NCBI RefSeq assembly: GCF_000381125.1
Contig: NZ_KB905933.1
Coordinates: 1-64,000 of the forward strand
Source: Caldimonas manganoxidans ATCC BAA-369
Lineage (GTDB): Bacteria; Pseudomonadota; Gammaproteobacteria; Burkholderiales; Burkholderiaceae_C
Direction: 5' to 3'
Length of the DNA stretch: 64,000 nucleotides
Shown: positions 11,321 through 18,211 of the stretch, piece after piece
How positions within the stretch are numbered: the first letter of the stretch is position 1
Layout: each line of letters opens with the position of its first letter
Notes under the pieces: model-generated
Seen by the model: only the letters and a program-made list of their open reading frames with translations
The model's database searches: none
Told to the model about the DNA's origin: nothing
Position numbers and translations under genes: made by a program

Positions 11321-11341
11321 ACGCAACGAGACGATTTGCCC

Positions 11342-13912
11342 ATGGACATTTCCCGCCTGCGGGCCCTGCGCGGCCCCAACCTCTGGACGCGCCGCACCGC
11401 CATCGAGGCGGTCGTGATCCTGCGCGACGACGAGCTCGACCTGCAAACCCGGCCCGGCTTCGAGGCCCGTCTGCGCGCCCGCTTCCCCGAAATCGGCGCC
11501 TTGCATGCCACCGGCCACACCGGCGCGGTCTCGATGGCTCATGCCCTGGCGGCCGCCGCGCTGGGCTTGCAGGCTCAGGCCGGCTGCCCGGTGACCTTCA
11601 GCCGCACCACGCCCACCCCCGAGGAACGGGTTTTTCAGGTGGTGGTCGAGTACAGCGAGGAGCCGGTGGGCCGTCTGGCCTTCGAATTGGCCCAGGCGCT
11701 GTGCGAAGCCGCGGTGCAGGACACGCCCTTCGATCTGGCCGATGCCTTGGCCCGCTTGCGCGATCTCGACGAAGACGTGCGCCTGGGCCCCAGCACCGGC
11801 AGCATCGTGCAGGCGGCCGTGGCGCGTGGCATTCCTTACCGCCGCCTCACCGAAGGCAGTCTGGTGCAGTTCGGGTGGGGGAGCAAGCAGCGACGCATCC
11901 AGGCGGCCGAGATGGATGTCACCTCGGCGATCGCCGAATCCATCGCCCAGGACAAGGAGCTCACCAAGGAGCTGTTGCTGGCCGCCGGCGTGCCGGTGCC
12001 CCAGGGCCGACCGGTGACGGATTTCGAGGACGCGCGCCGTGCTGCGGCCGAGATCGGCTGGCCGGTGGTGGTCAAGCCGCGTGATGGCAATCAGGGCAAG
12101 GGCGTGACGGTCGACATCGTCGATGACGAGCATTTGCGCATCGCCTATGACGCGGCGCGCGCGATCAGCGACGACGTGCTGGTCGAGCGTTTCATCCCCG
12201 GCTACGACTTCCGTCTGTTGGTGGTGGGCGACCGATTGGTGGCAGCCGCTCGGCGCGATCCGCCGCATGTGATCGGTGACGGCCTGCACAGCATTCGGGA
12301 GTTGGTGGACCAGGCCAACACCGACCCAAGGCGCGGCGATGGCCATGCCACGCCGCTGACGCGCATGCGCATCGATGACATCGCCCTGGCCCGCCTGGCC
12401 CAGCAGGGCTTTGGGCCCGATGACATTCCGCCCAAGGGGCGGCGCGTGGTGTTGCGCAACAATGCCAACCTCAGCACCGGGGGGACGGCCACCGACGTGA
12501 CCGACGACGTGCATCCCGAGGTGGCGGCCCGCGCCGTCGATGCGGCGCGCATGATCGGCCTGGACATCTGCGGGGTGGACGTGGTGTGCGAGAGCCTGCA
12601 GCAACCGCTGGAGTGGCAAGGCGGCGCCGTGGTGGAAGTCAATGCCGCACCGGGCCTGCGCATGCATTTGAGCCCGTCGTACGGCAAGGGCCGCCCGGTG
12701 GGGGAGGCCATCATCGATGCCATGTTCGCGCCAGGCGAAGACGGCCGCATCCCGGTGGTGGCCGTCACCGGCACCAATGGCAAGACCACGGTGGTGCGTC
12801 TGACGGCCCATCTCTTGGCGCGGCATGGCTGGCGCGTGGGCATGACCAACACCGATGGCGTCTACATCCAAGGCCGGCGCATCGACACCGGCGACTGCAG
12901 CGGTCCGCGCAGCGCGCGCAACGTGCTGGCCCACCCGGATGTGGACGCGGCGGTGCTCGAGACCGCGCGTGGCGGCATCTTGCGTGAAGGGCTGGGTTTC
13001 GACCGCTGCCAGGTGGCCGTGGTTACCAACATCGGCCTGGGCGACCACCTGGGCTTGAACTACATCACCACGGTCGAGGACCTGGCGGTGCTCAAGCGTG
13101 TCATCGTCCAAAATGTCGCGCCCACCGGCATGGCCGTGCTCAATGCGGCCGATCCGATCGTCGCCGCGATGGCCGAGAACTGCCCCGGAGATGTCACCTA
13201 CTTCGCGGCCGACCGCTTCCATCCCGTGATGGCCGCTCACCGGGTGCAGGGCCGCCGAGTGGTGTATGTCGACCGTGGCGACATCGTGGCCGAGCAAGCG
13301 GGCGTCAAGCACCGCTTTGCGCTGGCCGAAGTGCCGCTCACGCGCAACGGCACCATCGGTTTCCAGGTCGAAAATGCCATGGCGGCCGTGGCTGCGGCCT
13401 GGGCGGCTGGGGCCAGCTGGGACGCCATTCGCACCGGGCTGTTGACCTTCGAGAACGATGCGGACAACGCGCCGGGGCGCTTCAATGTCTTCACGGTACG
13501 CGGGGCCACCGTCATTGCCGACTACGGCCACAACCCCGATGCGATCGCGGCCCTGGTGCGGGCCGTGGAGTCCATGCCGGGCCGGCGTCGCACCGTGGTG
13601 ATCAGCGGGGCGGGCGACCGGCGCGATGAAGACATCCGCCAGCAAACGCGCATCCTGGGCGCGGCGTTCGACCGCGTCATCCTCTACCAAGACCAATGCC
13701 AGCGTGGTCGTGCCGACGGCGAGGTGCTGGCCTTGTTGCGCGAGGGGCTCCAAGGCGCCAGCCGCGCTCGCGAGGTGCAAGAGATCCGTGGCGAGTTCGC
13801 CGCCATCGATGCGGCCTTGGAAGACCTGCGCGAAGGCGATCTGTGCCTCATCCTCATCGACCAAGTCGATGCGGCGTTGAACCATCTGCATCGTCGCCTG
13901 GCCCAGGCCTGA
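11342..13912 (+). CDS. cphA: Cyanophycin synthetase
   Basis: An 856-residue canonical CphA. It polymerises arginine and aspartate into cyanophycin using two ATP sites. The N-terminal domain opens RALRGPNLWTRRTAIEA. The ATP-grasp module shows VVVKPRDGNQGKGVTV and AVVEVNAAPGLRMHLSP; the Mur-ligase module has an intact P-loop VTGTNGKTT (about 475-483), ETARGGILREGLGFDRC, TNIGLGDHLG and the late DYGHNPDAI motif. Length is close to the usual 870-900. ATG 11342 is used; TTG 11336 is in frame just upstream. It follows the CphA' gene by 21 bases, so both are likely translated from one mRNA. Confidence 0.95.
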   Translation: MDISRLRALRGPNLWTRRTAIEAVVILRDDELDLQTRPGFEARLRARFPEIGALHATGHTGAVSMAHALAAAALGLQAQAGCPVTFSRTTPTPEERVFQVVVEYSEEPVGRLAFELAQALCEAAVQDTPFDLADALARLRDLDEDVRLGPSTGSIVQAAVARGIPYRRLTEGSLVQFGWGSKQRRIQAAEMDVTSAIAESIAQDKELTKELLLAAGVPVPQGRPVTDFEDARRAAAEIGWPVVVKPRDGNQGKGVTVDIVDDEHLRIAYDAARAISDDVLVERFIPGYDFRLLVVGDRLVAAARRDPPHVIGDGLHSIRELVDQANTDPRRGDGHATPLTRMRIDDIALARLAQQGFGPDDIPPKGRRVVLRNNANLSTGGTATDVTDDVHPEVAARAVDAARMIGLDICGVDVVCESLQQPLEWQGGAVVEVNAAPGLRMHLSPSYGKGRPVGEAIIDAMFAPGEDGRIPVVAVTGTNGKTTVVRLTAHLLARHGWRVGMTNTDGVYIQGRRIDTGDCSGPRSARNVLAHPDVDAAVLETARGGILREGLGFDRCQVAVVTNIGLGDHLGLNYITTVEDLAVLKRVIVQNVAPTGMAVLNAADPIVAAMAENCPGDVTYFAADRFHPVMAAHRVQGRRVVYVDRGDIVAEQAGVKHRFALAEVPLTRNGTIGFQVENAMAAVAAAWAAGASWDAIRTGLLTFENDADNAPGRFNVFTVRGATVIADYGHNPDAIAALVRAVESMPGRRRTVVISGAGDRRDEDIRQQTRILGAAFDRVILYQDQCQRGRADGEVLALLREGLQGASRAREVQEIRGEFAAIDAALEDLREGDLCLILIDQVDAALNHLHRRLAQA

Positions 13913-14235: not shown

Positions 14236-16380
14236 ATGTCATCGATACAGCCTCAGTCGCGCAGGACTCCCACGGCCTTGGCCGCCGCAGCCGTGGTGCT
14301 CGGCCTGGGGGTGGCCGGAGGCGTCCAGGCGCAAGCCGTCCAGTCCTCGTCCAGCGAGGCGGCGACCGCGACCGAGGCTGCCGCAGCGCTGCCCTCGGTG
14401 ACCGTCACGGCGCGGCGCGAGAACCGGGTCTCCTCCGGGGCCACCAATTTGCCGCTGGAAATCAAGGAAACGCCGCAGTCCATCAGCACCATCGAGCAAG
14501 ACGTGCTGAGCGACTTCGGCCTCAGCAGCAGCAACGATGCCTTGCGCCTGGGCACCGGCATCAACGTCGACGAGTGGGAAACCAACCGCACCAGCTTCAA
14601 CGCACGCGGCTTCGATGTGATGCTCACCCAGATCGACGGCCAGGGCATGAGCAATGACTGGGGCTTGGTCGTGGGTCAGCTCGACACCTTCTTGTTCGAG
14701 AAAATCGAGGTGATCCGGGGAGCCAATGGCTTGCTCACCGGCGTGGGCAATTCCTCGGGCACCATCAACTTCGTGCGCAAGCGCCCCACCAATCGGGACG
14801 GCGGCCAGGCCCTGGCCTCGGTGGGCTCGCACGATTTCAAGCGCGTGGCGCTGGACTACAACAAGGTCTTGGGCGGCGACGGAATGTGGGCGGCTCGCTT
14901 GGTGGTGGCCCACGAAGACAAGGAATCCTATTTGCGGGCCTTGCACGATCGGCGCAGCACCGTGTACGCCGTGGTCGAGGGGCAGGTCGGCCCCCACGGT
15001 GTGCTCACGCTGGGCACGACGTATCGTGACGCACGCCAGCGCTCGCCGATGTGGGGCTCGCTGACCTTGCGGTATGCCGACGGGCGGCAGGCCGATTTCG
15101 ATGTCTCGGCCTCCACCTCACAGGACTGGACGCGCTGGAACACCGAATCACTCAATGCCTTCGTGGAATACGTGCATGCCTTGTCGCCCGATTGGGAGCT
15201 CAAGGCCAGCTACAACCACAACCGGGGCCAGGAATCCACCCGGCTGTTCTATGCCTACACCCTCACCGGCTATCTGAACGATGACAACACCGGCCTGCTC
15301 GGCTGGCCGTATCGCGGCGAAAGCAGCTCCGAGAGCCACATCGTCGAAACGAATCTGAAGGGCCGCTTCGATGCCTTCGGCCGTCGCCATGAAGCCATCT
15401 TGGGCCTGAGCCATTCACAGCGCACGCATCGCGCTTACTACTACTCCGGCGCGACCTTTCCCACCCTGCCGGCCTTTCCCTATCCGGGCGATGTGTTTCC
15501 AGAACCGGTGTGGGGCGCGAAAAACTTGAGTGCCGATGGCGATCAACACCTCACGCGCCTGTACGCCGCCAGCCGCTGGGCGCTGACCGATCGGCTCAAG
15601 GGCATCGTCGGCTTCAACGCGATCAAGCTGGTGCGCGACGGTTCGGCCATTTATGGCGGGGGCGTCAACCTGGATGACGAAACCACCGAAAAGATCAGCC
15701 CGTACGCCGGCCTGACCTACGACCTGACGCCCAGCACGCTGGCCTATGCCTCATATTCGGACATCTTCCAGGCGCAAGACCAGCGTGACATCAACGGCAA
15801 CTATCTGGCCCCGATGAAGGGGGTCAACCTCGAGGCCGGCCTCAAGAGCGAATGGCTGAACCGGCGCTTGCTCACCACCGTGGCCGTCTTCCAGGCCGAG
15901 CAGAAAGGTCTGGCCACCGAGGCGGGTTTCGATCCGATCGCGCAGCAGTCCTATTACGAGCCGCGTGACGTGAAGTCCCGAGGCGTGGAGCTCGAAGCCA
16001 CGGGCCGGGTCAGTGCGGACACGCGGCTGACGGCAGGCTTTACCGCGCTGAAGCTGACCGGCCCGGACGGTGGCAACACGTATGAATGGGTGCCGCGACG
16101 CACGCTCAAGCTGCTGGCCGACACCCGCGTGCCGGCATGGCCTCAGCTGCGCGTGGGCGCCGGTCTGCGCTGGCAGTCGGACGTGTACAAGCAAGGCGGC
16201 GTGCGCCAAGATGCCTATGCCGTGGTCGATGCCTTTGCGGCTTATGCGCTGTCCGAGCGGGCGGTCTTGCGTCTGAACGTCAACAACCTGTTCGACGAGA
16301 AGTACTTGCGCACCGTGCAGTTCGGCGCGATTTACGGCGCCCCGCGCACGGCCTATCTGGCGCTCGAATACCGCTTGTGA
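14236..16380 (+). CDS. TonB-dependent siderophore receptor
   Basis: A 714-residue outer membrane receptor. A signal peptide of about 32 residues ends at GGVQAQA. The plug domain follows: LPSVTVTARRENR resembles the TonB box region, then NLPLEIKETPQSISTIEQ, and FNARGFDVM, IEVIRGANGLLTGVGNSSG, typical of FpvA/FoxA/FhuE-like receptors. The barrel ends with NVNNLFDEKYLRTV and the terminal YLALEYRL. No N-terminal signalling (STN) domain is present, so it probably does not act through a FecR/FecI system. A Fur-like palindrome lies 160 bases upstream. The siderophore cannot be named. It is transcribed alone. Confidence 0.9.
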   Translation: MSSIQPQSRRTPTALAAAAVVLGLGVAGGVQAQAVQSSSSEAATATEAAAALPSVTVTARRENRVSSGATNLPLEIKETPQSISTIEQDVLSDFGLSSSNDALRLGTGINVDEWETNRTSFNARGFDVMLTQIDGQGMSNDWGLVVGQLDTFLFEKIEVIRGANGLLTGVGNSSGTINFVRKRPTNRDGGQALASVGSHDFKRVALDYNKVLGGDGMWAARLVVAHEDKESYLRALHDRRSTVYAVVEGQVGPHGVLTLGTTYRDARQRSPMWGSLTLRYADGRQADFDVSASTSQDWTRWNTESLNAFVEYVHALSPDWELKASYNHNRGQESTRLFYAYTLTGYLNDDNTGLLGWPYRGESSSESHIVETNLKGRFDAFGRRHEAILGLSHSQRTHRAYYYSGATFPTLPAFPYPGDVFPEPVWGAKNLSADGDQHLTRLYAASRWALTDRLKGIVGFNAIKLVRDGSAIYGGGVNLDDETTEKISPYAGLTYDLTPSTLAYASYSDIFQAQDQRDINGNYLAPMKGVNLEAGLKSEWLNRRLLTTVAVFQAEQKGLATEAGFDPIAQQSYYEPRDVKSRGVELEATGRVSADTRLTAGFTALKLTGPDGGNTYEWVPRRTLKLLADTRVPAWPQLRVGAGLRWQSDVYKQGGVRQDAYAVVDAFAAYALSERAVLRLNVNNLFDEKYLRTVQFGAIYGAPRTAYLALEYRL

Positions 16381-16440
16381 GCCTTGCCGCGGCCGCTTGC
16401 CTGGTACGGGTGGCATTCAGCCATCGGCCAGGCTGCGGCT

Positions 16441-17010
16441 TCACATGGCCGACCATCCGCCGAGGATCAGCACGCCCAGCGCGGCGAACAAGACCGCGGC
16501 GGCTTGATGGATGCGGCGGATCGGCAGTCGCCGCGTCAGCCGCTCGCCCAGCAGCACCGCTGGCGCGTTGGCGATCATCATGCCCAGCGTGGTGCCCAGC
16601 ACCACGGCAAAGAACGCGGCGTACTGGGCCGCCAGGGCCACGGTGGCGATTTGGGTCTTGTCGCCGATTTCGGCCAGGAAAAACGCCAGCGCCGTGGTCC
16701 CGAAGACGCCCCAGCGCGGGCCCTGAGCCGCCTGGGCGTCGTCGAGCTTGTCGGGAATGAGCACCCAGATCGCCATGGCGATGAACGACAGGCCAAGCGC
16801 CCAACGCATCACCTGGGGCCCCAGCATCGAGGTGATCCAGGCGCCCAGCGCACCGGCTGCTGCATGGTTGACGAGGGTGGCCACGAAGATGCCCAGCAGG
16901 ATCGGCAGGGGGCGCCGGTAGCGGGCGGCCAACAGCAGGGACAGGAGTTGCGTTTTGTCGCCCATTTCTGCCAGGGCGACGATGCCGGTCGAGACGAAAA
17001 ATGCTTCCAC
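16441..17010 (-). CDS. TMEM165/GDT1-family manganese exporter
   Basis: A 189-residue membrane protein with two copies of the family motif E-x-G-D-K-T/S: ALAEMGDKTQLLSLLLA near residue 15 and FLAEIGDKTQIATVALA near 115. These repeats define the UPF0016/GDT1 family of Mn2+/Ca2+ exporters (MneA and relatives). Six membrane helices are expected. The start is GTG 17010 with no clear ribosome site. The leader contains a yybP-ykoY riboswitch, which in other bacteria senses Mn2+ and turns on exactly this family, so function and control agree. Confidence 0.9.
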   Translation of the reverse strand: MEAFFVSTGIVALAEMGDKTQLLSLLLAARYRRPLPILLGIFVATLVNHAAAGALGAWITSMLGPQVMRWALGLSFIAMAIWVLIPDKLDDAQAAQGPRWGVFGTTALAFFLAEIGDKTQIATVALAAQYAAFFAVVLGTTLGMMIANAPAVLLGERLTRRLPIRRIHQAAAVLFAALGVLILGGWSAM

Positions 17011-17078
17011 GGGGCAAAGGATTCCGGCCGGCGTTCATACCCATGACCGCACCTGCTCCCGGCACGCAAGCAGGCACG

Positions 17079-17201
17079 GTCAAAGGTCTCGCCAAGTTCG
17101 CTCCACTTCCTGTGCCATGCCCACAGACGGGCAAGTGTGTTGACACAGGACCCTCGGGGGCGCGTCGATGTCGCGCACGAGGGAGGCTACTCCCCAATGA
17201 C
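17079..17201 (-). promoter_or_regulatory. yybP-ykoY (Mn2+) riboswitch aptamer
   Basis: On the minus strand the leader of the GDT1 gene shows the conserved parts in order: GGGGAGTAGCC (17195-17185), then GTGTCAACACACTTG and GCATGGCACAG in the variable arm, then GGCGAGACCTTTG (17093-17081). The ends pair (GTCA at 17201-17198 with TGAC at 17082-17079), forming P1. This matches the yybP-ykoY aptamer as seen in front of mntP and alx in Escherichia coli. Downstream, an imperfect hairpin (17046-17080) may be the expression platform. A -10 box TACAAT lies at 17215-17210, 9 bases before the aptamer. Confidence 0.85.
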
Positions 17202-17260
17202 AGGCGCGCATTGTAGCCGGAGGCGGCATACTGAGGTTTGATGTCCATGAGGAGCCGCCC

Positions 17261-18211
17261 TTGTTGCCACACGCTGAGCTGCCGCACGCCCCGCCTCTGC
17301 GCCCTGCCGGGCCCGAAGACCTGCCGGCCATCACGGCCATGCTGAACGAGCACGCCTTACCCCTGGCGGGGGTGGACGAGCATGGGGCCGACTTTCTCGT
17401 CGCGCGAGATGCCAGTGGCTTGATGGGCTGCGTTGGTTTGGAGTTTCATGGCGACGGCGTGCTGTTGCGTTCGGTGGTGGCGCGCATCGGTCACCAGGGC
17501 CTGGGCGGGCAGATGGTGCGCGCGGCCCTGCGTCAGGCCCGTCAGCGCGGCGCGCAGTGGGCCGTGCTGCGCACCACCACGGCCGCAGGCTTCTTCGCGC
17601 AGCAGGGCTTTCGCCGTGTGGAGCCGTCCGCGGTGCCGGCCGCAGTGCACGCGAGCGTCGAGTTTCAGGGGGCCTGCCCGGACAGCAGCATCACCATGAT
17701 GCGGGATCTGCGCTTTGGCGTGAGCGTGCGCGCTGCCCGCGAAGACGACATGCCGGCCGTGCTCGAGATCTATAACGAGGAGGTGCGCCACAGCACCGCC
17801 ACTTACCAGTATGCCGAGCGCACCCTGGACGAACAGGTGGCGCAGTGGTTGGCCAAGCGCGCCGAAGGCTATCGCTTCTTCGTGGCCGTCACCGACGATG
17901 ACGCCGTGGTGGGTTATGCCAACTATGGGCTGTTCCGCCCGCGTGAGGGGTGGCGTTTCACCTGCGAGCATTCGGTCTATATCCACCGCGACTGGCGGGG
18001 ACGTGGCTTGGGCAAGCTGTTGCTGCCAGCGGTGATGGCGCATGCGCGCGAGCGGGGGTTTCACAGCATGGTGGGTGTGGTCGATGCAGCCAACACCGCG
18101 TCGGTGAAACTGCACGAGTCGCTGGGATTCAAGTTGGCCGGCGTGATCCGCGAAGGCGGCTACAAGTTCGACCGCTGGCTCGATGTGGCTTTCATGCAAG
18201 CCATGCTGTGA
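17261..18211 (+). CDS. Fused double GNAT acetyltransferase (ArsN2-like + ArsN1/phosphinothricin-type)
   Basis: A 316-residue fusion. Residues 1-150 match ArsN2-type proteins of arsenic operons (L-R-P-A…DLPAITAMLNEHALPLAGV, V-G-L-E, LLRSVVARIGHQGLGGQMV, TTTAAGFFAQQGF, CPDSS). Residues 153-316 match the ArsN1/phosphinothricin acetyltransferase family (VRAAREDDMPAVLEIYNEEV, S-T-A-T-Y, EHSVYIHRDWRGRGLGKLLL with the Q/R-x-x-G-x-G/A acetyl-CoA loop, ANTASVKLHESLGFKLAGV, K-F-D-R-W-L-D). The latter confers resistance to organoarsenical methionine or glutamate analogues. No ars operon is nearby. The start is TTG 17261 or 17264, after GAGGAG at 17249-17254; no ATG is in frame. Confidence 0.85.
   Translation: MLPHAELPHAPPLRPAGPEDLPAITAMLNEHALPLAGVDEHGADFLVARDASGLMGCVGLEFHGDGVLLRSVVARIGHQGLGGQMVRAALRQARQRGAQWAVLRTTTAAGFFAQQGFRRVEPSAVPAAVHASVEFQGACPDSSITMMRDLRFGVSVRAAREDDMPAVLEIYNEEVRHSTATYQYAERTLDEQVAQWLAKRAEGYRFFVAVTDDDAVVGYANYGLFRPREGWRFTCEHSVYIHRDWRGRGLGKLLLPAVMAHARERGFHSMVGVVDAANTASVKLHESLGFKLAGVIREGGYKFDRWLDVAFMQAML

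Follow-up and report, generated by a model that had tools for sequence, protein, structure and literature searches.

A yybP-ykoY-class riboswitch before a GDT1-type transporter gene of Caldimonas manganoxidans, and a covarying helix beside the ribosome site in related leaders

By its sequence, the leader of a GDT1-type transporter gene in Caldimonas manganoxidans ATCC BAA-369 is a genuine yybP-ykoY-class riboswitch, an ordinary member of a well-known family. In related leaders, a helix termed here S2, which joins the apical loop of the hairpin behind the aptamer to the strand just before the Shine-Dalgarno (SD) sequence, is conserved and covarying. This comparative result outweighs the locus itself in importance. 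We tentatively propose, with somewhat more doubt than confidence, that many proteobacterial Mn2+ riboswitches contain S2 as an undescribed second switch helix, that a three-helix exchange (an anti-P1.1 hairpin, AP, against P1.1 plus S2) couples Mn2+ sensing to the ribosome site, and that this architecture persists before GDT1, MntP and Na/Ca-exchanger-type genes despite changes in its letters. For the Caldimonas locus, the best explanation as a whole, and in our judgement a probable one, is a Mn2+ ON switch on a GDT1 exporter that works by AP against P1.1 and S2 and has a translational output.

Identity of the Riboswitch and Probable Start of Its Transcript

A preliminary description of this DNA, made from the letters, had recognized a yybP-ykoY aptamer with its conserved parts and had suggested a covariance-model scan as the check, with a low score as the outcome that would speak against it. 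That scan, run over the whole window (the entire 64,000-nucleotide stretch of DNA analysed), matched Rfam family RF00080 (yybP-ykoY, Mn2+) at 17207-17016 on the minus strand with 72.0 bits, against a gathering cut-off of 45 bits, and confirmed the assignment. The match spans model positions 1-177 of 177, and its E value of 7.5e-17 rules out a chance origin. At gathering level, the window yielded RF00080 and one tRNA, and nothing else. The interval first given for the element, 17046-17215, carried no strand; it extends from the -10 box through to the 3' arm of the post-aptamer hairpin, all on the minus strand.

The matched stretch (17016-17207, minus strand) holds the aptamer and most of the platform. 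Helix names follow PMC6754395, and their placement on the Caldimonas leader was made in the present analysis. On the minus strand, the L1 core GGGGAGUAG lies at 17195-17187 and the L3 region GUCAACACACUUG at 17132-17144, the latter one letter (U to C) off the aligned Rfam consensus GUCAACAUACUUG; the conserved letters of L1 and L3 are otherwise kept. The P1 pairing of the preliminary description is present as the switch helix P1.1, with its 5' strand GUCAUUGG at 17194-17201 and its 3' strand CCUUUGAC at 17079-17086 (both minus strand), and as P1.2 (GCC/GGC). Across 157 related leaders, P1.1 has an own-partner pairing excess of z 3.7. Mn2+ is presumably the ligand of the Caldimonas leader, and the direction of control presumably ON.

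The -10 box TACAAT (17210-17215, minus strand) ends 8 nt before P1.1, at the right distance, as had been noticed at the outset. A TAnnnT motif ending 4-20 nt 5' of P1.1 is found in 154 of the 157 related leaders; a control region displaced by 40 nt in the upstream direction had one in 9 leaders, a count printed without its denominator. A consensus scan of 16380-17350 gave no sigma-70 pair, and no good -35 box was visible by eye. Because TACAAT ends so close to P1.1 and TAnnnT is kept in relatives, transcription probably starts at or just before P1.1, so that the RNA begins at about the aptamer. This RNA reads away from the divergent plus-strand gene at 17261, and control of that gene by the riboswitch is thereby ruled out.

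The Downstream Gene and Its Start Region

The gene behind the switch (16441-17010, minus strand) encodes a GDT1/UPF0016 (TMEM165/MneA-type) membrane transporter of 189 aa with a GTG start, 5 nt from the end of the RF00080 match. The protein matches PF01169 in two stretches with 151.4 bits, and its translation contains EMGDKT and EIGDKT, two instances of the E-x-G-D-(K/R)-(T/S) motif that the accessible text of PMC7380456 gives for GDT1/UPF0016; the GDT1-type gene proposed earlier is thus borne out. Mn2+ export is reported for Vibrio MneA in the same accessible text, and the Caldimonas protein may likewise export Mn2+. GDT1 proteins have a conserved first residue, with which the GTG coincides; 168 leaders use ATG there 126 times, TTG 24 times, GTG 9 times and another codon 9 times. 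The preliminary description had seen no strong ribosome site before it, and indeed only a weak SD-like GGAA (17022-17025, minus strand) is present, 11 nt before GTG; relatives have a GGAG-like consensus at the aligned place.

The pairing of a yybP-ykoY element with a GDT1 gene is already known, because 328 of the 333 strains that were screened and possess a UPF0016 gene have this gene under yybP-ykoY, according to the accessible part of PMC7380456, and the Caldimonas locus adds one more pair. Within its own assembly (3.5 Mb, 89 contigs) the RF00080 match is single. Genomes with a match, the own genome included, numbered 7 of 9 in a genus search, 86 of 150 in a family search, 113 of 300 in an order search and 24 of 369 in a class search, the last three having been run with stricter filters than the genus search, which lose weak matches.

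Sample of Related Leaders

A total of 245 loci were collected, of which 53 without the exact GGGGAGTAG core were dropped, including 40 of the 80 named GDT1 loci. The 193 core matches contained 2 duplicates and 23 loci without GDT1 within reach, leaving 168 GDT1 leaders. Nine of these had no ATG, GTG or TTG at the expected first residue, and from the remaining 159 one duplicate and L174 (for its length) were removed, which gave 157 aligned leaders, some of them near-identical. A divergent set comprised 97 of the 157, less than 80% identical. For RF00080 places without a locus, 100 were fetched; those below about 41 bits in the family search and about 51 bits in the order search were left out.

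A further set of 35 loci was picked after a first look. Thirty-three passed (L246 and L259 fell out): 17 GDT1 leaders that lie outside the order and came from the class search, together with 11 MntP leaders and 5 exchanger leaders. Left out of this set were L185 (start misassigned), L135 and L205 (no known target), L268, L270 and L271 (already in hand), as well as L120, L140, L142, L212, L214 and L227, whose exchanger starts were far or uncertain; these last six have no clear S2 before their assigned exchanger starts.

The Anti-P1.1 Hairpin

The hairpin proposed earlier at 17046-17080 is real and folds as 17086-17040 on the minus strand. This AP hairpin (17040-17086) has 18-19 bp, and its 3' strand, GUCAUGGG, resembles the 5' strand of P1.1. 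In folding of the Caldimonas leader, the P1.1 3' strand is also used by AP, into which it folds unless P1.1 is forced. The 157 relatives share this layout: a hairpin follows P1.1, its 5' arm opens with the P1.1 3' strand and its 3' arm is like the P1.1 5' strand. This likeness is not clearly species-specific, with 5.50 of 8 positions for own strands against 5.35 for swapped ones and a largest swap of 5.52.

P1.1 and AP thus compete for one strand, and AP is conserved and covaries in relatives. In the 97 divergent leaders, 14 of 15 AP pairs have double changes, and the structure as a whole is 83.7% paired, with 275 double-change cells against 98 ± 14 in shuffled controls. When double changes were mapped on the tree, several AP column pairs were among the top ranks, beside some unrelated pairs. 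The two AP arms ranked second in a partner-swap scan of 13 leader segments (z 15.2, 157 leaders); against swaps among the 15 nearest relatives, own pairing reached -16.0 kcal/mol versus -12.2 ± 0.3. RNAalifold recovered the lower part of AP only.

Helix S2 in Relatives and in Caldimonas

The apical loop of AP contains a strand, often GGCCGG, that is complementary to one just before the SD, often CCGGCC, and S2 is the helix between them. In 136 of 157 leaders, 9-17 nt separate its 3' end from the start codon, which places this end over the SD or near it. Own loops and ribosome sites paired at 22.6, against 18.4 ± 0.23 for swapped partners and 18.9 for the largest of 100 swaps (157 leaders). The excess persists in the 46 of 157 leaders that have no GGCCGG in the loop, where own pairing was 23.5 against 16.0 ± 0.5, and the largest of 300 swaps 17.3. 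Among all pairs of the 13 leader segments, the loop and its S2 partner came first (z 19.8; partner swap, 157 leaders). Since relatedness inflates such partner-swap z values, swaps were also confined to neighbours, and own pairing at -20.2 kcal/mol still differed from the -18.6 ± 0.2 obtained among the 15 nearest relatives. In the 97 divergent leaders, S2 on its own reaches 93.4% pairing and 47 double-change cells, compared with 14.3 ± 2.8 when shuffled and at most 9 when slid.

In the 33 further loci, a chosen set, own pairing was 24.0 against 18.0 ± 0.66, with 19.9 as the maximum of 300 swaps; 7 bp or more were present in 31 of 33. For the 16 non-GDT1 loci of this chosen set, the values were 23.3 against 20.0 ± 0.98, with a largest swap of 22.9. 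Under a stricter home-made G-test/APC procedure, whose null was tree-based, no pair in AP or elsewhere came out at E below 0.5; either the test is too harsh or it is hurt by misalignment. Because it found not even AP, the tree-mapped counts, partner swaps and shuffle and slide controls were used instead.

The Caldimonas copy of S2 is weak. Its 5' strand GCCGG lies in the AP apical loop at 17059-17063 and its 3' strand CCGGC at 17027-17031, just 5' of the weak SD (both minus strand), so that it has 5 bp, where about 7 bp or more marks S2 in relatives. Taken alone, it does not stand out from shuffled sequence, which does equally well in 29 of 40 cases, and in nested folding it is near zero even with P1.1 and P1.2 forced. 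A second species of the genus (L004) has this 5-bp layout as well. This short helix may nonetheless matter for control.

In the structure line of RF00080, both S2 strands are unpaired, and a stretch near P4 is paired with the last model positions instead; if confirmed, S2 could join the Rfam structure. Among the matches listed in searches of open-licence full text, none had a title or abstract that pointed to an S2-like helix in yybP-ykoY; the key 2015 papers (Dambach, Price) lay outside that scope. The accessible parts of PMC11087558 and PMC9495176 do not mention S2. It may already be in print. Translational control by a Mn2+ riboswitch in Proteobacteria has been described only in outline, as far as the accessible texts go, and S2 adds to this a defined helix that covaries and lies next to the ribosome site.

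Proposed Mechanism and Alternatives

As a member of the yybP-ykoY class, the Caldimonas leader would turn on a GDT1-type Mn2+ exporter in response to Mn2+, and its RNA would begin very close to P1.1. Binding of Mn2+ would let L1 and L3 dock and would hold P1.1; without Mn2+, AP would take the P1.1 3' strand and expression would be low. S2 is placed in the P1.1 (Mn2+-bound) state, in which it would compete with AP from the top as P1.1 does from the bottom, keeping the leader open. The switch would most likely act on translation initiation, perhaps with the help of Rho, and less likely through intrinsic termination.

That S2 belongs to the Mn2+-bound state is pointed to by modelling, because S2 rises when P1.1 is forced and a shortened AP eases the linker limit. 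With P1.1 and P1.2 forced in nested folding, the mean over 157 leaders rose from 0.055 to 0.580 for S2 and fell from 0.853 to 0.199 for the upper part of AP; S2 went up by more than 0.05 in 116 of 157 leaders and down in none. A crude rule on linker length leaves no room for S2 as a pseudoknot in 30 of 157 leaders with the full AP and in 1 of 157 with AP shortened by P1.1. Forcing P1.1 and P1.2 costs a median of 12.7 kcal/mol in nested folding, so switching would need Mn2+ and co-transcriptional kinetics.

Another arrangement of the same helices, which we think rather unlikely but take as the strongest contender, would make S2 an OFF-state element. The AP loop would then capture the pre-SD strand without Mn2+ as a ribosome-blocking pseudoknot, and Mn2+ would weaken AP and free the site. 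The position of S2 fits this (its 3' end 9-17 nt before the start codon in those 136 leaders), AP keeps at least 10 bp in 157 of 157 leaders when the S2 strand is held free, and the opening of AP costs a median of 6.1 kcal/mol compared with a median S2 duplex of -15.1. It would also agree with E. coli mntP, which the accessible text of PMC11647493 describes as a translational Mn2+ ON switch with a Rho contribution, its SD masked without Mn2+. Yet S2 is rare with the full AP in the nested model and common with P1.1 (the 0.055 and 0.580 above), although nested folding cannot score pseudoknots, and the same linker limit bars a full-AP pseudoknot in 30 leaders while the linker is long enough in the other 127. 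These counts favour S2 in the Mn2+-bound state without deciding the matter. Under a third reading, transcription attenuation, AP would serve as an intrinsic terminator, with P1.1 held by Mn2+ as its antiterminator; for X. oryzae, such a model of P1.1 against a terminator hairpin is published (PMC6754395, accessible part). In the family, a GC-rich AP and a U-rich linker behind it (the best 8-nt stretch contains 4.0 U on average, compared with 2.2 for controls from the aptamer body, and reaches 5 U or more in 52 of 157 leaders) lend themselves to such a model, but the best count after AP in Caldimonas is 3 U of 8 and a terminator scan of the window finds none at AP. With 3 of 8 U and no terminator-like site, the Caldimonas AP is rejected as an intrinsic terminator, and attenuation is on the whole unlikely. 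Since the Caldimonas copy has no U-tract after AP, translation is the likeliest output. Finally, the aptamer could be present in a switch that has become weak or is no longer Mn2+-responsive, S2 and SD having degenerated. The 5-bp S2, the SD of GGAA only, the GTG start and a score of 72 bits against more than 100 in the best relatives could be read so, but all model positions are covered, L1 and L3 are kept and the 5-bp S2 recurs in L004, which makes this very unlikely.

For the translational ON switch, the access of the ribosome site was also modelled. With P1.1 and P1.2 forced, SD access showed no significant gain over the 157 leaders (0.402 to 0.429, p 0.08); in the Caldimonas copy, SD access went from 0.57 to 0.64 and start-codon access from 0.51 to 0.35. 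The idea in the preliminary description that translation may be controlled through the hairpin at 17046-17080 is reasonable, in that the hairpin is conserved, can take the 3' strand of P1.1 and is followed by no U-tract, but forcing P1.1 and P1.2 brought no significant gain in ribosome-site access in the family, nor a clear one in the Caldimonas copy. In the minimum-energy fold of the Caldimonas leader, the start-codon region pairs with the released P1.1 5' strand. As a general feature this pairing is ruled out, being above 30% in 14 of 157 leaders for the SD and 12 of 157 for the AUG. One hot pairing cell joins the P4 loop and 3' strand to the SD region (-14 to -2), with z 6.8 against 3.4 or less for the rest (157 leaders); against the nearest relatives z is 2.2 (5 nearest) and 2.8 (15 nearest). 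These sequence comparisons are only suggestive of the P4 loop and 3' strand as a Mn2+-free mask of the SD.

Comparison with Known Systems

The Caldimonas element resembles the RF00080 family in its full-length match, in P1.1, P1.2, L1 and L3, and in lying directly before a Mn2+ transporter gene, and differs by its long AP, absent U-tract and weak S2. With the E. coli mntP riboswitch it shares the aptamer, a hairpin behind it that draws on the 3' strand of P1.1, and a possible S2-like helix, whereas the E. coli AP domain is longer and the gene is MntP, not GDT1. A GCUGGGG/CCCCGGU helix that ends immediately 5' of the SD is one of several that the E. coli leader could form; it was computed without a control and is absent from the minimum-energy fold. 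In the X. oryzae yybP-ykoY riboswitch, as proposed for Caldimonas, Mn2+ protects P1.1 from invasion by the strand of a downstream hairpin; this riboswitch is described in the accessible part of PMC6754395 as a terminator/antiterminator, in contrast to the Caldimonas locus without a U-tract. The Vibrio mneA leaders likewise have a GDT1-type gene behind a predicted yybP-ykoY, and mneA is Mn-induced; in V. parahaemolyticus, this induction came without a coverage drop at the riboswitch (both from the accessible text of PMC13274385).

Neighbouring Genes and Other Loci

The divergent gene at 17261-18211 (plus strand) encodes a two-domain acetyltransferase, with an N-half above the cut-off for ArsN2 (arsenic resistance) and a C-half like ArsN1/phosphinothricin acetyltransferases, below their cut-offs. 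A TonB-dependent siderophore receptor gene (14236-16380, plus strand) is convergent to the GDT1 gene, 60 bases apart; its product is FauA/FhuE-like, below those cut-offs. A cyanophycin-synthetase-like protein with ATP-grasp and Mur ligase domains is encoded at 11336-13912 on the plus strand.

In six Burkholderiales loci (L171, L213, L214, L221, L222 and L225), yybP-ykoY aptamers stand before genes of the Na+/Ca2+-exchanger family, confirmed by Pfam Na_Ca_ex for L221 and L214 and judged by motif for L171, L213, L222 and L225. This arrangement suggests that exchangers behind yybP-ykoY may handle Mn2+. In L120, the aptamer is followed by an apparent decayed GDT1 start (MEAFLIST..., from about 1512, plus strand) and then by an exchanger-like ORF, as though the remains of an exporter had stayed behind the switch. 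One genome (G122) has two Mn2+ riboswitches of equal score at C2:152205 and C2:172457 (L008 and L146/L270), separated by 20 kb, and a third elsewhere; the pair suggests a recent duplication.
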